A stretch of DNA of 30,394 nucleotides from an uncultured archaeon (lineage in GTDB: Archaea > Halobacteriota > Methanosarcinia > Methanosarcinales > Methanoperedenaceae): NCBI GenBank assembly GCA_902386085.1, contig CABMIA010000185.1, positions 1 through 30,394 on the forward strand, read 5' to 3'. The notes beneath the pieces are model-generated. The model worked only from the letters and a program-made list of their open reading frames with translations. It did not search any database and was not told the DNA's origin. The position numbers and the translations under genes were made by a program. Position 1 is the stretch's first letter, and every line of letters starts with the position of its first letter. This document shows, in pieces, positions 2,587 through 30,394 of this stretch.

Positions 2587-2913
2587 ATGACACGAGCTGA
2601 AATTTTATCTGAGATAAAAAAAGCTGAGGAAGAAGCCAAAGCCATGGTGGCCCAGGCGGCCGAGGCTAAAAATAAAAAAATTTCTGAGGCTAAGATGGCG
2701 GTCAGGGAGATAATGAGGAAAGCAGAGGAGGATGCGGCAGGAATAGCAGAATCCCAGATAAACGAGGCAAGGAAAAGAATTCAGGAAGAAAAAGGGAAGA
2801 TCATAGAAAAAGGCAACCTTGAAGCTTCCGAGATAAAACAGAAAGCAAGAAAGAATATCACAAAAGCCACAAAATTTATTTTGACTGATTTCGAGAGGGC
2901 AGCCAATGCTTAA
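2587..2913 (+). CDS. ahaH: A-type ATP synthase subunit H (peripheral stalk)
   Basis: A 108-aa, almost wholly alpha-helical, highly charged protein (EILSEIKKAEEEAKAMVAQAAEAKNKK...) with the hendecad/heptad Ala-Glu-Lys pattern of the archaeal H subunit, which pairs with subunit E to form the peripheral stalks of the A1Ao ATP synthase. It is the first gene of the operon, with a good Shine-Dalgarno (GAGG, 6 nt upstream). It overlaps the start of ahaI by 8 bp, implying translational coupling. The first-gene position is the same as in the Methanosarcina aha operon (established knowledge). Confidence 0.92.
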   Translation: MTRAEILSEIKKAEEEAKAMVAQAAEAKNKKISEAKMAVREIMRKAEEDAAGIAESQINEARKRIQEEKGKIIEKGNLEASEIKQKARKNITKATKFILTDFERAANA

Positions 2914-4879
2914 ACCCACAAAAATGACCCGTGTGGTCATCGCTGGAACAAAAGAACATATTGAAAATACAATATCTACCCTTCACAAATTGAACCTGCT
3001 TCATGTAACAGATTATAATGAAGAAACCGAAGACTTTAAGATGGGCCGACCGCTGAAACCTGCATCAGAACTCTCAGATCATCTTCTTTCTTTGAGAGGG
3101 ATTGCAAACCAGCTCGGAGTCATGGGAAAAGAATCTGCAACGAAACTGAGTTCAAAACAACTCCCATCACAGATCGATGAGAAAATTACATTTCTCCAGA
3201 AAGAAGTATCATCCCGTTTTGATGAATTGAGGAACATAGAATTCAGGATAAAGGAGAAAGAAGACCTGATCTCCGCTGTAAAACCATTGATGGCTCTCCC
3301 GTTATCAATAGATGCTTACCACGGGTATGAGAGTGTGATAATGTATTCTGGATTTATCGCTGAAGATTTAGAATTAAAACTCTCCAAGATAACGACCAAT
3401 TACGAATTATTTAGCGGGGATTACGAAAAAAGGAAAGTATTTGCGCTTTTCATTCCGAAAATTTTCGAGGAAGAAACCCAAAAACTCCTTCAGGAAGAGC
3501 GGACATATGTTGAATTAAAGATCCCTGAGCTGAAAGGCAATCCTCCTGTAATTCTTGAAGCACTGGAAAAAGAGGTCCAGGAGCTCAAGGAAAAACAGGC
3601 ATCAATAAAATCCGAACTTGATAACCTCAAGAAGGAATATTCAGAATTCATAATTGCCGCTGATGAACATCTTTCCATAGAGACCCAGAAGGCAGAAGCT
3701 CCGCTGAGATTTGCCACAAGCCCCAATGCATTCATTATCGACGGATGGGTACCATCAAGAAGATTCGATGAACTTGACTCAATATTACAGGAAAGCACGC
3801 AGGGACAGGTATATTTAACCAGGATTGAAGAGAACGTAAACGAGGAAGATATACCAATAGAACTTGAGAATCCAAGTGTAGCAAAGCCCTTTGAACTCCT
3901 CATCGACACCTTCGCAACACCAAAATACAAAGAAATCGATCCTGCGACAGTGATTTTCATAACTTTCCCGCTTTTTTATGCCATCATGCTGGGTGACGTC
4001 GGGTACGGCCTTATTGTCGCAGCTATGGCTATGATTATCAAAAATAAATTCAAGACCGGTGGTCTCAATGCACTTGCATTGATATTGTTCTTTTCAGCTA
4101 TCCTCTCGATAATATTCGGCATTATATACGGGGAATTCTTTGGCTTTCCAATATTTAATGTTGTTGTTAAAGGAGAACTGGAACACGGTATTCTTGGAAT
4201 GGCAGGCCCTGCGGTCGCGGGATTTCATCTGCCAGTGCACAGGTTTGAGGCAGTCCAATCTCTTCTACTAATGACGCTGGTCATCGGAATATTACATATC
4301 TTTCTGGGATTGGCCATCGGTTTTCGCAATATTGTAATCGAGCACGATTTGAAGCATGCGATTTTTGCAAAGGGAAGCTGGATCATGATACTGGCAGGCG
4401 GTGTCGCGGCCATAGCTAAATTAATGCCTGCCATGATGTCGGGTTTACCTGTTCCCTCAAAGGACCCTGTATTTATGATGGGAGCGGTGCTGGCCATAAT
4501 AGGGATCATACTCCTGGTGAAAGGCGAAGGAGCCATCTCCATAATGGAGATACCTACACTTCTTTCCAATGTCCTTTCGTACACAAGGATACTTGCAATA
4601 GGTTTATCCTCGGCGGGGATAGCTCTCGCGGTAAATACTCTTTCGATGAACCTTTTCATAAGGCCGGGCGGTGTTTTGCTGGGCGGCGGGATCGGTCTCG
4701 CACTGATTGGGGTGGTAGTACTTTTTATCGGGCATCTGATAAATTTATTACTTGGCATCCTCGGGCCCGGGCTTCACTCGCTAAGGCTTCAATACGTGGA
4801 ATTTTTCACTAAATTTTATGAAGGGGGAGGTAAGAAGTACGCCCCCTTTGGTTATAATAGAAAATATACGGAGGAATAA
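2906..4879 (+). CDS. ahaI: A-type ATP synthase subunit I (membrane subunit a)
   Basis: A 657-aa stator subunit that forms the ion half-channels facing the proteolipid ring. Residues 1 to about 345 are a soluble coiled-coil arm that binds the peripheral stalks. From about 346 (FITFPLFYAIMLGDVGYG) to the end there are seven to eight membrane helices. The essential Arg is expected at R561 in the LSNVLSYTRILAIGLSS segment, as in the V/A-type a-subunit family. It overlaps ahaH by 8 bp and is followed 5 nt later by the proteolipid gene. Length and motifs match full-length family members. Confidence 0.96.
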   Translation: MLKPTKMTRVVIAGTKEHIENTISTLHKLNLLHVTDYNEETEDFKMGRPLKPASELSDHLLSLRGIANQLGVMGKESATKLSSKQLPSQIDEKITFLQKEVSSRFDELRNIEFRIKEKEDLISAVKPLMALPLSIDAYHGYESVIMYSGFIAEDLELKLSKITTNYELFSGDYEKRKVFALFIPKIFEEETQKLLQEERTYVELKIPELKGNPPVILEALEKEVQELKEKQASIKSELDNLKKEYSEFIIAADEHLSIETQKAEAPLRFATSPNAFIIDGWVPSRRFDELDSILQESTQGQVYLTRIEENVNEEDIPIELENPSVAKPFELLIDTFATPKYKEIDPATVIFITFPLFYAIMLGDVGYGLIVAAMAMIIKNKFKTGGLNALALILFFSAILSIIFGIIYGEFFGFPIFNVVVKGELEHGILGMAGPAVAGFHLPVHRFEAVQSLLLMTLVIGILHIFLGLAIGFRNIVIEHDLKHAIFAKGSWIMILAGGVAAIAKLMPAMMSGLPVPSKDPVFMMGAVLAIIGIILLVKGEGAISIMEIPTLLSNVLSYTRILAIGLSSAGIALAVNTLSMNLFIRPGGVLLGGGIGLALIGVVVLFIGHLINLLLGILGPGLHSLRLQYVEFFTKFYEGGGKKYAPFGYNRKYTEE

Positions 4880-8763: not shown

Positions 8764-10155
8764 ATGGCAAAGGAATACAAGACAATCAGGGAAATAGCAG
8801 GTCCTCTCATCTTTGTTGAAAAGACCGAACCTGTAGGGTATAACGAGCTTGTCAATATCACTCTCCCTGATGGCACAAGCAAGAGGGGACAGGTGCTCGA
8901 TACTTCCAATGATGTGGTCGTGGTGCAGGTATTTGAAGGAACAGGCGGTCTTAATAAGGAATGCGGCGTCAGGTTCACAGGAGAGACAATCAAACTACCT
9001 GTCTCAAAGGACCTGCTCGGCAGGATACTTTCAGGCTCAGGCGAACCGCTTGACGGCGGGCCGCGCATCGTGCCTGAGGACAGGCTTGAAATAACAGGCG
9101 CAGCAATAAATCCGTACGCGCGCCTTCCCCCGAAGGAATTCATCCAGACTGGCATTTCTACTATCGACGGGATGAATACGCTTGTCCGTGGCCAGAAGCT
9201 TCCGATTTTCTCAGGTTCCGGTCTTCCCCATAACGAGATTGCCCTGCAGATTGCACGGCAGGCAAGGGTAAGGGGTTCGGGAGAACAGTTCGCGGTTGTG
9301 TTCGCTGCAATGGGCATAACGAATGAAGAGGCACAGTATTTCATGCGCGACTTTGAGCGAACGGGCGCACTTGAGCGGGCGGTAGTGTTCCTCAACCTGG
9401 CTGACGACCCTGCTGTGGAGAGGCTTATCACGCCGAGACTGGCTCTCACCGCTGCAGAGTACCTTGCATACGAACATGATATGCACGTACTTGTGATTCT
9501 TACCGATATCACAAATTACTGCGAAGCGCTCCGCCAGATGGGCGCGGCGAGGGAAGAAGTGCCTGGAAGGCGCGGCTATCCGGTGTACATGTACACAGAC
9601 CTTGCTTCGCTGTATGAACGCGCAGGCGTGGTTAAGGGAAGAAAAGGTTCGGTTACGCAGTTCTCCATCTTATCCATGCCAGGCGATGATATCACACACC
9701 CGATACCAGACCTTTCAGGATACATCACAGAAGGGCAGATTGTGATCTCACGGGAACTACATCGGAAAGGAATTTATCCGCCCGTCAATGTACTGCCTTC
9801 TCTATCAAGACTGATGAATTCAGGCATAGGCGCTGCAAGAACGCGGGAGGATCATAAAGCGGTCTCAGACCAGTTATACGCTGCCTATGCAGAAGGCAAG
9901 GATCTGCGCGGACTTGTTGCAATCGTGGGTAAGGATGCTCTCTCGGACAGGGATAAGAAATTCCTTGAGTTCGCAGACATGTTCGAGGACAGGTTCGTGA
10001 GGCAGGGAGTAGATGAGAACAGGGATATCGAGACCACTCTTGATATCGGCTGGGAACTCCTTTCGGCATTACCTGAAGCCCAGCTCACAAGGATTGACAA
10101 CAAGTATATCCAGAAGTACCACCCGGCACATCGGGCAAAAGAGAAAAAAGAATAA
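8764..10155 (+). CDS. ahaB: A-type ATP synthase regulatory subunit B
   Basis: A 463-aa non-catalytic partner of subunit A in the A3B3 hexamer. I chose the ATG at 8764 ([15 protein letters not shown]) because GGAGG at 8751-8755 is well placed for it and it begins just after the ahaA stop; an in-frame codon at 8740 would overlap ahaA without need. The degenerate P-loop ([20 protein letters not shown]) lacks the Walker Lys, as expected for B subunits. The motif [22 protein letters not shown] ([34 protein letters not shown]) is diagnostic. Confidence 0.97.
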
Positions 10156-10156
10156 T

Positions 10157-10777
10157 ATGGCTGTAAAGGATAATATAAAACCCACACGCTCGGAACTTAT
10201 CGAGCTAAAGAAGAAAATCAAGCTCAGCCAGAGCGGGCACAAGCTCCTAAAAATGAAGCGCGACGGCCTGATACTTGAACTTTTTGCCATTCTTGAGAAG
10301 GCAAAGGACATAAGGGCTGAGGTGGAGAAACAGTTTGCCCTGGCCTCGCAGAAGCTTGCCATTGCAAAATCGGTTGAGGGCGTGATAGTGGTGAAGTCCA
10401 TCGCTTTTGCGCTCAAGGATACGCCAAAGCTAGAACTTGAAAGTAAGAACGTTATGGGCGTTGTAGTGCCGAAGATCGAAGCATCAAGCGTGCATAAGAA
10501 GCTCGACGAGCACGGCTACGGTATTATTGGAACGACCTCCCGTATAGATGAGGCTGTGGACGCCTATGAAATACTGGTGGAAAAGATCATCCTCGCTGCA
10601 GAAATTGAGACAACGATGAAGAAGCTGCTTGAGGATATCGAGAAAACGAAGCGCAGGGTGAACGCGCTTGAGTTCAAGGTCATACCTGAGTTAAGCGAGG
10701 CAAAGGATTTCATTGTGCTGAGGCTTGAGGAAATGGAACGGGAGAATACCTTCAGGCTGAAGAGGATAAAAGGCTGA
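10157..10777 (+). CDS. ahaD: A-type ATP synthase subunit D (central rotor shaft)
   Basis: A 206-aa long antiparallel coiled coil that acts as the rotor shaft inside the A3B3 head. It starts at ATG 10157 (MAVKDNIKPTRSELIEL), directly after the ahaB stop; an earlier in-frame start would lie deep inside ahaB and is rejected. The N-terminal PTRSELIELKKKIKLSQSGHKLLKMKRDGL and the C-terminal RRVNALEFKVIPEL...FIVLRLEEMERENTFRLKRIK are hallmark segments of the family. It is the last gene of the operon. The unit ends at 10777, and no ahaG-like small ORF was seen. Confidence 0.96.
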   Translation: MAVKDNIKPTRSELIELKKKIKLSQSGHKLLKMKRDGLILELFAILEKAKDIRAEVEKQFALASQKLAIAKSVEGVIVVKSIAFALKDTPKLELESKNVMGVVVPKIEASSVHKKLDEHGYGIIGTTSRIDEAVDAYEILVEKIILAAEIETTMKKLLEDIEKTKRRVNALEFKVIPELSEAKDFIVLRLEEMERENTFRLKRIKG

Positions 10778-26229: not shown

Positions 26230-26233
26230 GAGA

Positions 26234-26318
26234 TGCGAGGGATGGGATTTGAACCCACGAACCCCTACGGGATTGGACCCTAAATCCAACGCCTTTGACC
26301 GGCCTGGGCAACCCTCGC
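26234..26318 (-). tRNA. tRNA-Leu (anticodon UAG)
   Basis: Cloverleaf on the minus strand: acceptor GCGAGGG/CCCTCGC with discriminator A, D arm within GCCCAGGCCGGTCAAAGGC, anticodon stem TTGGA/TCCAA with loop TTTAGGG (anticodon TAG), long variable arm CCCGTAGGGG, and T arm GTGGG-TTCAAAT-CCCAT with one G-U pair. The long variable arm and anticodon give Leu. No CCA is encoded. Its 5' half is part of a 43-bp direct repeat repeated at 29795-29837, so the gene is the target of the adjacent integrated element. The original upstream promoter DNA is now displaced to the far side of the element. Confidence 0.95.
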
Positions 26319-26319
26319 A
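26277..26319. repeat. attL, 43-bp core inside tRNA-Leu
   Basis: Identical to 29795-29837. It covers the tRNA from one base before its 5' end through the anticodon loop, and restores a complete tRNA gene at this side. Confidence 0.92.
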
Positions 26320-26866
26320 ACAGCTTTTTGAAAAAGCTGGCAAAAACGGTATCGATACCATTTTGAAATTAAGGGGTTTATCTGATACTACAATCAAATC
26401 ATATAAGTGTTGTTATAACCAATTCAAAAGAAGCGTAGGCAAAAAACATATCACAAAAGGATTACTTCAAGAATATTGGTTAAATCATTCTGATAAGAGG
26501 AACAATCTTGCTCTATTGCGCTCGGTATTCGCAAGTGAAATAAGGGTTCTGGGGTTTGCTATTGCTATTATTGCAATATACTGGTTGATATACAATTGGA
26601 AACCCCAAATATTATACATGCAGTAGAATCATTTTAGAAGCTGAAAAGAGGCTTATTTATTTAGATTCTGAAGAAAAACGTGTCATTCTAGAAGCTGCAA
26701 AGAAAATTTTATCCACAACTATATAATTAGAACGAGAATAGACAAGGTTCAAAAGTGAATTTTGTTTTTGTTAGCTTATAGGAGGCTTTGCAAGACATTA
26801 TAGCGATTTCAGCCCAGAGTCTTGAAAGATATTTATGAAAAGGCAGGGTTGAAGATATTATGTTGA
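26320..26866 (+). pseudogene. Decayed SSV-type tyrosine integrase, main part
   Basis: Directly after the att core the frame reads QQLFEKAGKNGIDTILKLRGLSDTTIKSYKCCYNQFKRSVGKKHITKGLLQEYWLNHSDKRNNLALLRSVF, a SAM-like core-binding N-terminal domain of archaeal tyrosine recombinases. It then degenerates (stop at 26626). At 26784-26822 the frame encodes GFARHYSDFSPES followed by a TGA; a one-base frameshift continues as LKDIYEKAGLKILC to TGA 26864-26866. This resembles the C-terminal end of archaeal integrases, with the Tyr of RHYSDFSPE as the likely nucleophile. Regions with the catalytic Arg and His are missing, so there has been an internal deletion plus a frameshift. The start is at the right end of the element (29779). 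Confidence 0.7.
26321..26339. repeat. 9-bp inverted repeat beside the attL core
   Basis: CAGCTTTTT (26321-26329) and AAAAAGCTG (26331-26339) separated by one base, starting one base after the 43-bp core. It could be an integrase-binding arm, or a terminator-like hairpin. It also lies where the promoter of tRNA-Leu should be, immediately 5' of the tRNA. Confidence 0.45.
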
Positions 26867-26960
26867 TATAAAAAGAAATAAATATCAAAAATAACGACTA
26901 TTACAATAGAAAAGAAAAGTATTAGGCTCAAAAAAAAATGTATAAATGAAGGTATTTTGT

Positions 26961-27095
26961 ATGACTAATAAGAAGGATCGAGTCCAAGCTTACAATCCTC
27001 GAACAGGAAGATGGGTGAAAATCGATACAGATACTGGGAAAATAATCGCTCATAAAAAAACAGAGGGGAAATATAAAGGAATTCGCAGGGTCTAA
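26961..27095 (+). CDS. Small basic protein (44 aa) of the element
   Basis: ATG 26961 to TAA 27095. Its product (MTNKKDRVQAYNPRTGRWVKIDTDTG, then KIIAHKKTEGKYKGIRRV) belongs to a recognisable type of very short basic proteins with the NPRTGRWVKIDT.TGKII.HKKT.G.YK pattern, which I recall from archaeal and phage-related genomes with no known role. TATA-like TATAAATG at 26941-26948 and AAGGT 26949-26953 lie upstream. It sits 21 nt before the TIR-like gene, so they may be co-transcribed. Confidence 0.6.
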   Translation: MTNKKDRVQAYNPRTGRWVKIDTDTGKIIAHKKTEGKYKGIRRV

Positions 27096-27116
27096 TCCTA
27101 AGTGAAGAATTAAAAA

Positions 27117-27803
27117 ATGATAATTATTTGTCCTAATAATGGAGATGAATGTGATAAGCACATACAATTTATTCCAAAATCTGCTTTTTTAATTACAGCT
27201 TATCTTAACAAGAATGAAGGTTCTTATGAAGAAATCACTAATATTGAAGAAACATTACGTTCTATTTTAAAAAGAAATGATTTTTCACTGGAAATCGCAA
27301 AAAACAAATTTAATACCGGAAATATGTTGTGTAAAATTTGTGAGTATATACAAGCAACGTCATTTTCAATAGCATTATATACTTCGAAAACTCCTATTAG
27401 GAGTGTCCCAAATATTTTTTACGAAATTGGAATTGCTCAAACATTTGGAAAATCTGTTTACTTAATGGGTGGAAATAATAAAAAGAGACCATCAGATTTG
27501 GGTGGTTTGGAATGGATAAAATTTGATGATATTAATGATTTAGACCAAAAATTTGGGGACATATTTAATAAAGTTAATATAAAATCTGATTATTATAATA
27601 AAATTGGTAATTTAAAATTTAATGCTAAAAATTATGGCGAAGCATTTTGGTATTACAAGACGGCATATCTATTAAATCCTACAACAGAAATTAAAAATAA
27701 TATAATTAAAATCAATGAAAAATTAAAATCTTTAAATAATAATATAGACATATCACTACAAAGAGAAATAGATTCAATTACGAAATTTCTTGCCTTTCTT
27801 TGA
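27117..27803 (+). CDS. TIR-like / nucleoside-deoxyribosyltransferase-like protein with C-terminal TPR
   Basis: A 228-aa protein. Residues of about 20-150 show a Rossmann-type TIR-like fold: AFLITAYLNKNEG at strand 1, FSIALYTSK.PIRSVPNIFYEIGIAQTFGKSVYLMGG in the second half, where E103 of NIFYEIGIA sits at the conserved Glu of TIR/NDT-like NAD- or nucleotide-processing domains. Residues 159-190 (YYNKIGNLKFNAKNYGEAFWYYKTAYLLNPT) form one TPR repeat, then a Lys/Asn-rich tail. Composition is extremely AT-rich. Such domains act in NAD cleavage or nucleotide sensing in antiviral systems (family knowledge); the activity here is inference. Confidence 0.6.
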   Translation: MIIICPNNGDECDKHIQFIPKSAFLITAYLNKNEGSYEEITNIEETLRSILKRNDFSLEIAKNKFNTGNMLCKICEYIQATSFSIALYTSKTPIRSVPNIFYEIGIAQTFGKSVYLMGGNNKKRPSDLGGLEWIKFDDINDLDQKFGDIFNKVNIKSDYYNKIGNLKFNAKNYGEAFWYYKTAYLLNPTTEIKNNIIKINEKLKSLNNNIDISLQREIDSITKFLAFL

Positions 27804-27938
27804 TAAACAAAATTTAGTAATTCTTTTGATGGGAGTTAATGGTGAAGATCAATTATCGGACCTTAACTGATTCTCCAGCTTTTTTATAGGATTCCTTGTA
27901 AAAATAAGATTAATGCTTCTAACGCAAAATTAGCAGTT

Positions 27939-28163
27939 TTATCTCCAGTTGATTATTCTTATTTCTCTGAGCGTTTTTATATCGATTCCCATTAATATAC
28001 AGCTTGTCAATATGAACAAAGGAATAAAAGGAGCAATCAATAGCGGGTTTTTCACATCGGAATAAATTCCTGTGAGGAGGACGTATAAGCTGATTATAAA
28101 AACAACAAATACCATTAATGTTCTTGGTTTTTCTGTTTTGACTTCAGTTTCTTTTTCATCCAT
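27939..28163 (-). CDS. Small two-helix membrane protein of the element
   Basis: 74 aa from ATG 28163 (MDEKETEVKTEKPRTLMVF...); a TTG nine codons earlier is possible. There is a charged N-terminus, then TM1 (about 15-33, LMVFVVFIISLYVLLTGIY) and TM2 (about 40-60, LLIAPFIPLFILTSCILMGI), and a basic C-terminus. Not recognised. Small two-TM proteins next to TIR proteins could be effectors or anchors, but nothing proves this. Confidence 0.5.
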   Translation of the reverse strand: MDEKETEVKTEKPRTLMVFVVFIISLYVLLTGIYSDVKNPLLIAPFIPLFILTSCILMGIDIKTLREIRIINWR

Positions 28164-28219
28164 ATTTATGCTAATAATACCCTGCAACACATAACTGCGT
28201 CAAAATGCTCATTCATTGA

Positions 28220-28519
28220 TTAGCCCCATCTTACATTATACCCACAATTTGGACATGGGGATTGATTTAGCTTAAGTACCCAATTGCAATTTCCACACCT
28301 GTGAATAGTAACATCCTGCCCTTTGACGCCTGCTTTTGCTATTTCTTTTAATATGTATAAAAATAACCATATTACAATTACAGCCAAAACCAACTTTGCT
28401 ACAGCATCATTTCTTCCCATTTTTTGCGACCAGGCCAGTAATCGGCTATCGAGATTAATATAGTTAACTCTAAGGTAATACCTTTTCTTATCGTGCTCTG
28501 CGTCTCCTTTTAGAACCAC
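28220..28519 (-). CDS. Membrane protein with C-terminal zinc ribbon
   Basis: A 99-aa protein from GTG 28519. It has a basic N-terminal part (MVLKGDAEHDKKRYYLRVNYINLDSRLLAWSQKMGR), one TM helix (about 41-58, AKLVLAVIVIWLFLYILKEI) and a C-terminal zinc ribbon with C75-x2-C78 and C89-x2-C92 (HRCGNCNWVLKLNQSPCPNCGYNVRWG). Not recognised as a named family. The start codon is supported only by the upstream stop; no strong Shine-Dalgarno is visible. Confidence 0.55.
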   Translation of the reverse strand: MVLKGDAEHDKKRYYLRVNYINLDSRLLAWSQKMGRNDAVAKLVLAVIVIWLFLYILKEIAKAGVKGQDVTIHRCGNCNWVLKLNQSPCPNCGYNVRWG

Positions 28520-28819
28520 GCCTTTGCCATTTCATACTATGTTTTTTTGTGGTTTACTGGTTCCCAGAGCCGACTGGCAGCCCAAAGACAACGTAAAATA
28601 GGTGGAGGCTCTTCCCAAATCATGCGATTGGAATGGTGGGAGGGAAGCCCAGCATTTTGAACGTAACGAGATTTATAGATTGCTAAGTGTTTCGCAAATT
28701 ATTCTTAATCTTCCTCTGTGGTTGTAGAAATGGAAAATAAGACTTCAAATCATGGTTTTTTTCAAGCTCTCTGACGATAAGGTTGCTTCTTCAAACGCAG
28801 CTCTACCTCTATACTCACC
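28520..28819. other. 300-bp gap with a decayed repeat and a weak hairpin
   Basis: No intact gene. It holds a long-loop hairpin (AGAGCC 28566-28571 with GGCTCT 28607-28612). At 28762-28796 is a 35-bp segment 30/35 identical to 28896-28930 inside the TIR gene. In the matching minus-strand frame the copy encodes V-stop-RSNLIVREL against VCRGELIVSEL in the gene. Confidence 0.5.
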
Positions 28820-29440
28820 CTACAGTATAATATCATCTAAACTATCATTAAAGGTTGCAGCTCTATCTTTAAACATATATATAATATCAGAAGTATCAAG
28901 CTCACTGACGATAAGTTCGCCTCTGCAAACTGGGCATTTATATTTCTTGCCATACACAAATCTATAAAAAGTGGCTTTACAAGTTTCTTTTCCACAGTGA
29001 GTGATTTTGAATTTTGGCATTATTTCGGGTTGGTCTGTAGGGATTGTAGTCCCCGCACTTTCGACTATTGGAAAAAAAGGGAAAGTTTTCTTTGTATTAA
29101 CTTTTTTTGGATATTGAATATAACCAGTAACATATGGAATGGGAACATCGATTTTTTCATCTTTTGGTTCAAAGACCCATACATTTAACTTTAATGCAGC
29201 AGCTAAGCCAACTTCGTAACTAACCCAAGTACGAGTGTGGGTTTTCTCCATTGGTTTTGAGAGCACAACAAACAATGAATCAGAAGCTTTCAGAGCATCT
29301 AAAATTGTTTTTGCGTGTGGGGGTTTTGGTCCTTCCCATGAATACCAATATGCTTTATGGTCTGATGAATCAAAGAATTTAGCAAAAAAAGTTCTTCCTG
29401 CTTCGTCATCCTTACTGTGAGACATAAACACTCTGCCCAT
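28820..29440 (-). CDS. TIR-domain protein with C-terminal zinc ribbon
   Basis: A 206-aa protein. TIR domain at about 2-92: RVFMSHSKDDEAGRTFFAKFF (strand 1 and BB-loop side), SDSLFVVLSKPM, and WVSYEVGLAAALKLNVWVFEP with E76 at the place of the catalytic Glu of NAD-cleaving TIR domains. A linker (about 93-145) has two hydrophobic strands. A zinc ribbon with H148/C149, C154, C169 and C172 (ITHCGKETC..., YKCPVCRGEL) follows, then a short acidic tail. AT-rich. TIR domains are widespread effectors of prokaryotic immunity, and the ribbon could bind nucleic acid or protein. The combination and location suggest a defence gene; function is inferred. Confidence 0.75.
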   Translation of the reverse strand: MGRVFMSHSKDDEAGRTFFAKFFDSSDHKAYWYSWEGPKPPHAKTILDALKASDSLFVVLSKPMEKTHTRTWVSYEVGLAAALKLNVWVFEPKDEKIDVPIPYVTGYIQYPKKVNTKKTFPFFPIVESAGTTIPTDQPEIMPKFKITHCGKETCKATFYRFVYGKKYKCPVCRGELIVSELDTSDIIYMFKDRAATFNDSLDDIIL

Positions 29441-29778
29441 TCTGTCACCTATTTTTGTTGTTTCAGCTTCCTTTTATTAGTCTTAGTGGCATAAAACTTC
29501 CTGTTCAGGAGTTCCTATCTCAACTTTCTTGAACCGCCCTTTCTTATCCCTTGGACATTTGCATTTCTTGGGCTTGCAAATGCAGTAAAGATTTGTTTCT
29601 TATTCAAATGTCTAAATCAATGTGCTTGCATCCTTGGAAGGAATAGCAAAGAAGGTCGAATAGAATGAGTAAAATCGGTTGGACATCGGTATTAATCAGA
29701 GTCTTTACACGGCATCTTAAGAGAAAATGCAAAAGAGCAGAAAATCGCTATACATGAACTCATTTCTCGTGGAGTTAT
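29441..29778. other. Non-coding or decayed stretch at the right end of the element
   Basis: 338 bp without an intact gene. The minus strand at 29483-29599 is open for 38 codons and Cys-rich (CICKPKKCKCPRDKKGRFKKVEIG) but lacks a usable start. A stem CATTTGCA/TGCAAATG near 29553-29580 lies in it. On the plus strand a short ORF starts MSKIGWTSVLIRV at 29666, which begins like the MSKIGWT start of phage Gp37/68-type (DUF5131) proteins but ends after 30 codons. All look like remnants. Confidence 0.4.
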
Positions 29779-29871
29779 ATGGGTATCTTCCCCCACCCTA
29801 AATCCAACGCCTTTGACCGGCCTGGGCAACCCTCGCATTTCTGTGCCATAATTTGCCTTTGCTCTAAATGA
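29779..29871 (+). pseudogene. 5' stub of the split integrase gene
   Basis: ATG 29779 with GGAG at 29771-29774 (4 nt spacing) reads MGIFPHPKSNAFDRPGQPS through the 43-bp core, then runs into chromosomal DNA and stops at 29869-29871 (30 codons). Joined to 26320 as in the excised circle, the frame continues without interruption into QQLFEKAGKNGIDTILK. This is the proper start of the element's integrase. Confidence 0.78.
29795..29837. repeat. attR, 43-bp copy of the tRNA-Leu 5' half
   Basis: Identical to 26277-26319. It lacks the 3' half of the tRNA, so it is not a second tRNA gene. The DNA to its right was probably the original tRNA-Leu upstream region. Confidence 0.92.
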
Positions 29872-29949
29872 TTTCTAATGCATAAAGCTTATTATGGATA
29901 CCATTTCAGTGCGTAAACATGGGAATAATGACAAATTAGATTGAACAGC

Positions 29950-30309
29950 ATGAAAGGAGTTTACATATTAATCCTCAAACTGGATAACAATGCAGGTATT
30001 AAAATCGGGAAGCTTGGAAATCTGAATTTCAAAAATGGTTATTATGCCTACATCGGCTCAGCCCTCGGAACAGGTGGGTTCAAGCGCGTAACAAGGCATT
30101 TCAATGTAGCTTCAGGCAAAAACCGCACAAGGAAATGGCATATCGATTACCTGCTGCCCCATTCCAGCGTCGTGTGTGCCGTACTCTTGCCAACAGGTGA
30201 AGCCCTTGAATGCGCCGTTGCAAGAACGCTTGCGAAATTCGCAGATCGTGTTCCGGGATTCGGGTGCACCGACTGCTCCTGTCCAACGCATCTCCTCTAT
30301 TCCGAATAG
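29950..30309 (+). CDS. DUF123 / GIY-YIG-like nuclease-family protein
   Basis: 119 aa from ATG 29950 (MKGVYILILKLDNNAGIKIGKLGNLNFKNGYYAYIGSALGTGGFKRVTRHF). A TTG three codons earlier is in frame but less likely. DUF123 proteins share GVY.L.....G.....G.Y.YIGSA......R..RH and KWHIDYLL, all present here, with C-terminal Cys residues (FGCTDCSCPTHLLY). They are related to GIY-YIG endonucleases, and in some archaea the domain is fused to endonuclease III. A DNA repair or processing role is possible but unproven. It lies on the chromosomal side of attR. Confidence 0.85.
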   Translation: MKGVYILILKLDNNAGIKIGKLGNLNFKNGYYAYIGSALGTGGFKRVTRHFNVASGKNRTRKWHIDYLLPHSSVVCAVLLPTGEALECAVARTLAKFADRVPGFGCTDCSCPTHLLYSE

Positions 30310-30394
30310 GATTTCAAAGACAGGATAATTGAATCCTGCAATAAGCTCACGGGAAACGATAGTATCATAATAAGCCCGAACATTTAGGAGCTAA
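30310..30394. other. Window end, no gene seen
   Basis: 85 bp after the DUF123 gene. GGAG at 30385-30388 could be the Shine-Dalgarno of a gene beginning just outside the window. Nothing else is supported. Confidence 0.3.

Follow-up and report, generated by a model that had tools for sequence, protein, structure and literature searches.

Composition of the locus and its attachment repeat

We analysed a 30,394-bp stretch of DNA (contig CABMIA010000185.1, the window in the following) from a metagenome-assembled genome (MAG) of the methane-oxidising archaeon Candidatus Methanoperedens, in which 3.5 kb of AT-rich DNA lies between a complete tRNA-Leu(UAG) gene and a second copy of the 5' half of this gene (Table 1). 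To the left of the insert lies VapBC and to its right DUF123, with TIR-type and small open reading frames (ORFs) between them. A first annotation made from the letters alone, here called the sequence-only reading, had proposed a small tRNA-integrated element of the SSV (Sulfolobus spindle-shaped virus) type with immunity-like cargo, and the genes it named are present. The insert is a real, decayed, self-splitting integrative element of a known kind, carrying what is likely immune-type cargo; its host, its minority geometry and its cargo are what is new.

The direct repeat bounding the insert is perfect over its 43 bp (43/43, offset 3518 bp), as the sequence-only reading had it. Chance is an unlikely source, since the runner-up among direct repeats of the 5.9 kb examined measures 35 nt at 86% identity, with its copies 134 bp apart. 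The anticodon UAG was taken directly from the sequence and, together with the tRNA coordinates, it places the repeat over the single base preceding the tRNA and over the tRNA 5' half as far as the anticodon loop. The AT-richness that had been noted was likewise confirmed, with a GC content of 33.2% in the insert (26320–29794) compared to 43.7% in the left part (1–26231) and 43.3% in the right part (29838–30394), and none of 92 equal-length windows of the left part is as AT-rich as the insert.

Table 1. Coordinates of features in the window and of tRNA-splitting elements in other genomes (G, genomes; C, contigs; L, loci)
Feature	Position	Strand	Basis
tRNA-Leu(UAG), complete, integration target, rebuilt at int(C) end	26232–26319	minus	ARAGORN; Rfam tRNA 45.9 bits
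Left attachment-site copy, 43 bp, 5' half of complete tRNA-Leu	26277–26319		exact repeat
int(C) relic, attachment site into core-binding domain, then apparent internal deletion	26285–26560	plus	match to genus integrases
Candidate substitute promoter box inside int(C), antisense to int(C)	26399–26412	minus	7.9 bits; 49/1000 shuffles reach score
Integrase gene tail, frameshifted	26788–26866	plus	90% DNA identity over 80 columns to 3' end of L039 integrase gene
PDC-S38 ORF, 49 aa, candidate-defence family	26946–27095	plus	PADLOC PDLC05010, E 3.7e-14
TIR protein 1, CAP12/Pycsar-type TIR	27117–27803	plus	PF10137 24.9 bits, cut-off 24.7
Small ORF, 83 aa, membrane-like (by eye)	27939–28190	minus	ORF; no significant family
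Small ORF, 99 aa, zinc ribbon and hydrophobic segment (latter by eye)	28220–28519	minus	PF13240 E 0.0011, below cut-off
TIR protein 2, ThsB-like TIR and zinc ribbon	28820–29440	minus	PADLOC ThsB models, best E 4.5e-4, below cut-off
Likely int(N) relic, frameshifted	29665–29794	plus	matched part 29699–29794; start 29665 by eye
Right attachment-site copy, 43 bp, orphan tRNA 5' half beside native promoter side	29795–29837		exact repeat
Native tRNA promoter box, now 3.5 kb from complete tRNA	29880–29893	minus	9.3 bits, tRNA-upstream motif
G018 tRNA-splitting element (G018:C5)	L043 8898–9131, L079, L044 3187–4439
G005 tRNA-splitting element (G005:C65)	L188 2738–2977 and 14602–15855
G015 element, probably splitting tRNA-Leu(UAA)	L187 (G015:C1:655032–668885)

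Empty sites at tRNA-Leu(UAG)

Forty genomes were searched for the tRNA-Leu and 31 genomes of the genus for the right flank; the two lie near each other in many of them, and 21 loci (L040–L060) were fetched. DUF123 occurs in 19 of these, with tRNA-Leu at most 500 bp away in 13, 1.7–6.6 kb away with other genes between in three (L045, L043, L042) and not found in the fetched stretch of a further three (L053, L054, L056). With both flanks of the window joined without the insert as query, a single unbroken alignment from the tRNA to DUF123 was obtained in seven of the 21 loci (L040, L048, L049, L051, L055, L057, L058), while insert DNA was absent from all 21 at E 1e-5. Integration at tRNA-Leu(UAG), as the sequence-only reading had proposed it together with this comparison, is thus directly supported by empty sites in relatives. 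One of the seven, L040, comes from the MAG of the window itself (contig C107, G000:C107). This second tRNA-Leu(UAG)–DUF123 locus is 79.5% identical to that of G014 and perhaps belongs to a contaminating strain.

Integrase relics and their family

Remnants of an integrase gene were found at both ends of the insert. The frame of int(C) starts within the left repeat copy and reads rightward out of it; its best relative matches at E 9e-17 (42%), the integrase of locus L039 at E 9e-8, and matches at E 0.01 were obtained in eight of the 31 genus genomes, a count that includes the own genome. The middle of the integrase, including the catalytic domain, is deleted in the window, and the tail of the gene is frameshifted. 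Two short palindromes of 19 and 12 bp lie at 26321–26359, where int(C) starts, directly next to the complete tRNA. At the opposite end, the stretch 29699–29794 reads into the right repeat copy, a layout also seen in L089 and L039, and tblastn placed the int(N) queries of L089 (E 0.014) and L032 (E 0.017) here as their best, if weak, match in the window, so that this end likely carries int(N). Decayed halves of one integrase at opposite ends of an insert are the plan of SSV-type ('suicidal') integrases. The split of the integrase by its own attachment site, part of the sequence-only reading, is therefore clear for int(C) and weaker for int(N), and the loss of integrase function that it had assumed comes in two layers, the split by integration itself and the subsequent deletion and frameshifts.

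Kinship with the SSV type becomes apparent through the relatives. The catalytic domains of four of them (L039, L037, G005:C83, G013:C9) pass the cut-off of PF16795, which is passed in three of the 31 genus genomes; in the excerpts of the cited papers, on which all literature comparisons here draw, this family marks suicidal integrases of the pTN3-like, pT26-2-like and SSV kinds (PMC8371274). The L039 integrase matched 22 phage records, all of them Sulfolobus viruses and, among the best 20 of the 22, 18 named spindle-shaped viruses; ten plasmid records were matched, five from Sulfolobales and five from Bacillus relatives. At the level of sequence comparison these matches establish the kinship that the sequence-only reading had suggested. 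When the integrase alignment was searched against 185 genomes of the order, 20 gave a match, 15 of them in the genus. Relatives in Bathyarchaeota, Hadesarchaea, Nitrososphaeria and others (29 loci in a named collection) indicate that the family is not confined to the genus. Scans of viral contigs with the window integrase, and with the integrase and both TIR-family alignments, returned nothing useful.

Larger relatives with an integrase, for which the sequence-only reading had suggested a search, were found as well. A complete catalytic domain is kept in L039 and L089, and also in L088 and L037, for which the far ends were not found. Both pieces of the integrase are clear by reading in L089, with int(N) in the ORF at 2740–3117 and int(C) at 9640–10524. 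Locus L039 (8284–17649, G000:C48) places a second self-splitting element of about 9.3 kb in the window's own MAG, bounded by a perfect 57-bp repeat of tRNA-Thr(CGT) and with an int(C) that contains the complete catalytic domain. By eye, a large protein and an ArdC-like protein of this element resemble two proteins of the L089 element. A further self-splitting element, L032 (4415–11614, G012:C5), has ends that share ACTCTTAATCC (tRNA-Lys anticodon loop) with no adjoining tRNA gene, possibly an off-target insertion which marks the strand-exchange region. Insertions beside the same tRNA in G016, G018 and G007 were considered as larger relatives and rejected, since their ORFs differ by eye and no insert DNA was matched.

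Cargo genes

TIR protein 1 has five homologues with up to 94% identity, among them two of 94% and 90% from metagenome contigs, a C-terminal part that is weakly TPR-like and a glutamate, residue 103, which is kept in all six aligned sequences; its structure model reached a predicted local distance difference test score (pLDDT) of 47.3 and was not used. The model of TIR protein 2 (pLDDT 82.8) gave ThsB as top match of the fold search (E 0.0013), which was led by ThsB, SPARTA and other TIR chains with a CTP synthase domain in fourth place, none of them reaching E 0.001. Here, glutamate 76 is kept in 15 of 15 aligned sequences. An invariant glutamate is the catalytic residue in TIR enzymes. Two homologues were found for the PDC-S38 ORF. 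No match above cut-off resulted from the NCBIfam scan, and sequence searches of solved structures with both TIR alignments gave nothing useful.

The TIR-type domain and the conserved glutamate are shared with Thoeris ThsB and with the CAP12 effectors of Pycsar and CBASS, at weak to borderline profile matches. In contrast to Thoeris, the ThsB match is weak and no ThsA was detected among the five cargo ORFs scanned; in contrast to Pycsar or CBASS with a CAP12-type TIR effector, no nucleotide cyclase was detected among them; and TIR protein 2 differs from both kinds of effector by its own zinc ribbon. Of the 'mobile defence cassette' that the sequence-only reading had proposed, the matches to parts of known systems stand; by themselves they do not amount to a working defence system. 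We consider it probable that the cargo consists of immune-type effectors, and these matches are suggestive of a role in defence.

Within the 31 genus genomes, TIR protein 1 is found in three, the own genome and, as distant matches of 30–39% identity, G018 and G008; TIR protein 2 and PDC-S38 are each found in the window's own genome only. Among 149 sampled genomes of the order, TIR protein 1 occurs in six and TIR protein 2 in two, own genome included. Vertical conservation of the cargo, which according to the sequence-only reading would make recent integration unlikely, is thus not observed in the genus. Its description of the element as fixed is not demonstrated, with a single MAG as carrier and close cargo homologues known only as proteins of metagenome contigs.

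Geometry relative to the tRNA and its promoter

The distance of integrases to tRNA genes was evaluated in a set of 33 rows, composed of 30 of the 32 rows of the 185-genome search (two were without a locus), L034, L038 and the window; 20 of these rows lie at most 300 bp from a tRNA. L095 and L115 are pieces of one relic, which was therefore counted once and with its adjoining tRNA, while the nearest tRNA of the L095 row is another one, toward which L095 reads. Counted in this way, 19 of 32 relics have a tRNA at a distance of at most 300 bp, and all 19 read away from it, 13 in sense on the tRNA 3' side and six antisense on the tRNA 5' side. It should be noted that L110, among these six, matches weakly and may represent a different integrase class, and that L039 and L032, which carry partial tRNA sequence at their ends, were entered as misses. 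The form observed in the window, featuring the tRNA 5' half, an antisense integrase and a tRNA joined to int(C), is consequently the minority form.

The native promoter box beside the orphan 5' half is conserved upstream of the tRNA-Leu of relatives; the motif was trained on 43 tRNA upstream regions, with related tRNA-Leu loci included. On the opposite side, the box inside int(C) weakly resembles a promoter and is, judged from its score, a candidate driver of tRNA-Leu. Of the other antisense loci, all but L110 were scored; comparable boxes were obtained in two of these four, L034 (7.2 bits, reached by 86 of 1000 shuffles) and L101 (7.5 bits, 57 of 1000), whereas the test failed in L036 (2.8 bits, 519 of 1000) and L088 (2.5 bits, 474 of 1000). 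A far-reaching model, in which each integration into an antisense 5' half severs the tRNA from its promoter, the box inside int(C) drives the tRNA and the resulting dependence of the host holds the remnant with its TIR cargo in place, appears unlikely to us.

Proposed history of the element and alternative explanations

We propose, with high confidence, that these 3.5 kb represent a plasmid or virus that integrated at tRNA-Leu(UAG) by means of a split integrase and then decayed to a remnant with TIR cargo. This plasmid or virus, with Candidatus Methanoperedens as its host, would have entered the tRNA gene by tyrosine-recombinase exchange, presumably at the anticodon loop. Since the attachment site lies inside the integrase gene, integration would have cut this gene into int(N) at the right and int(C) at the left end, and since the tRNA 5' half is antisense to the integrase, the complete tRNA would have been rebuilt at the int(C) end, with its native promoter left behind at the int(N) end. 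Deletion and frameshifts would then have destroyed both integrase halves, leaving the PDC-S38 protein, the two TIR-type proteins and the two small proteins as open cargo. The TIR proteins would most likely be immune effectors, either consuming nicotinamide adenine dinucleotide (NAD) or making a signal from it. The element may once have been larger, and its cargo may be the reason for the persistence of the remnant.

Several observations weigh against this history or parts of it. The left flank of the window matches none of the 15 left flanks of relatives compared, so that the left junction rests on tRNA continuity, and the MAG is fragmentary (207 contigs, 63.6% complete, 2.4% contaminated). 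The match of int(N) is weak, and one of three int(N) queries, that of L039, misses the relic at the right end. No tRNA lies within 300 bp of 13 of the 32 relics, the present promoter of tRNA-Leu is no more than a candidate, no replication gene was recognised in the element, and no complete known defence system was recognised among the five cargo ORFs. In a partial scan of the sister elements with PADLOC, ten proteins of L039, L089 and L032 gave no defence match other than a single weak, homing-endonuclease-like one.

The unshared left flank and the state of the assembly, in which C107 provides a second tRNA-Leu(UAG)–DUF123 contig, would also be expected if the window were a chimera whose left and right parts stem from separate places or strains and meet at the 43-bp repeat. 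However, the left flanks of relatives are unlike one another too, with the exception of the pair G016/G007, and PurQ, which lies in the left flank, is found beside different tRNAs across genomes. The right flank moreover shows the expected promoter and DUF123 beside the orphan 5' half, and both integrase ends are decayed, unlike those expected if an active free element had been wrongly assembled onto an empty site, which renders an assembly chimera very improbable. An integrase-driven inversion was also considered as origin of the PurQ flank and rejected, given the different tRNAs beside PurQ and an orientation unfit for a simple exchange. We assign a similarly low probability to a repeat created by another recombinase or by tRNA duplication, in which case the integrase relic would stem from an earlier and unrelated insertion next to this tRNA. 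A different recombinase is indeed used by further elements of the locus, which also leave tRNA halves (G018, and in decayed form G008 and G002), but int(C) begins in frame within the left copy and the int(N)-like sequence extends as far as the right copy, while the copies are identical and the 5' half alone is duplicated, unlike in the tRNA-splitting elements.

A different question is whether the cargo, integration being real, serves defence at all. The TIR-type and small proteins could instead serve the element itself or be decaying hitchhikers, which we regard as plausible though rather doubtful. The absence of a complete known system and of recognised defence genes in the partly scanned sister elements would fit this explanation, as would TIR protein 1 lying barely above the Pfam cut-off with no PADLOC match and TIR protein 2 lying below its cut-off. 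On the other hand, the two TIR ORFs are open in an element with a broken integrase, the glutamate is kept in homologues and PDC-S38 is matched.

Relation to known elements

The element has in common with SSV-type (type I, 'suicidal') integrases the attachment site within the integrase gene, the int(N)/int(C) split and the tRNA target (PMC8371274), but it differs in its host, in the decay of both integrase halves and in an int(N) which, by eye, resembles a ribbon-helix-helix segment. Use of the tRNA-Leu 5' half, a site of 41–43 bp and separation of the tRNA from its own promoter are features shared with the pTN3-like integrases of Thermococcales (PMC5495485, PMC8371274); pTN3 uses tRNA-Leu with a shared site of 41 bp and a minimal site of 43 bp (PMC5495485). 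The excerpted review describes the rebuilt pTN3 tRNA as expressed from the integrase promoter (PMC8371274), hence the pTN3 tRNA would adjoin int(N), whereas the tRNA of the window adjoins int(C) in antisense and is set apart from pTN3 by this published description. The same excerpts call use of the tRNA 5' half unique to pTN3-like integrases in archaea (PMC8371274), while one case of 5' integration is reported in Thaumarchaeota (PMC6563490). The pT26-2 family, integrated plasmids of Thermococcales with suicidal type I integrases and loss of replication genes after integration, is comparable in being integrated and in its integrase type, but all its attachment sites are described at the tRNA 3' end, in contrast to the 5' half used here (PMC6972569).

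Self-splitting integrases of the SSV type can be considered a mobile system that recurs in Candidatus Methanoperedens, where many dead copies lie next to tRNA genes. To this system the window adds a geometry of tRNA 5'-half integration that the cited excerpts do not describe. TIR-type genes survive here in a minimal element integrated one way, and stable installation of cargo by such integration thereby becomes a testable question. In the genus, tRNA-Leu is also the target of a second strategy, in which the tRNA gene is broken and a replacement brought along.

Elements that split tRNA-Leu

In elements of this second kind, the native tRNA-Leu is broken at the anticodon arm and a complete tRNA-Leu of the same anticodon lies just inside one end. 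In G018, the 5' half (43/43 to G021) and the 3' half (58/58 to G021) of the native tRNA-Leu(UAG) are 19.4 kb apart, with a complete, different tRNA-Leu(UAG) just inside the left end and a tyrosine recombinase of 381 aa (PF00589, 59.6 bits) at the right end. The tRNA-Leu(GAG) of G005 is likewise split, with a recombinase 74% identical, and G015 features a complete tRNA-Leu(UAA), a tRNA-Leu(UAA) 3' half and a recombinase 77% identical. Once the flanks had been joined at the shared core (16 bp in G018, 7 bp in G005, 14 bp in G015), a tRNA-Leu with unchanged anticodon was called in two of the three elements, G018 and G005, and no tRNA-Leu in G015, while none of the six single junctions gave a tRNA call. 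A recombinase with an adjoining tRNA-Leu 3' half was additionally found in G020 and G046, where the other ends were not seen, and G002 (L185) and G008 (L047) look like decayed cases. These elements resemble the tRNA-dependent lysogeny of mycobacteriophages, as excerpted (PMC10865867), and may by analogy be its archaeal counterpart; the matches listed in our literature searches include no archaeal case, which does not prove absence.

Both kinds of element meet in L188 (15838–16077, G005:C65), where the 3' half of the split tRNA-Leu(GAG) is directly followed by a relic of a self-splitting integrase, and both have thus used the same tRNA gene. In L052 (3390–5534, G019:C149), tRNA-Leu(CAG) is followed at a distance of 1.3 kb by an exact 41-bp copy of its 3' half, with an 18-bp copy further on, which would represent either another small integrated element or a tandem array.

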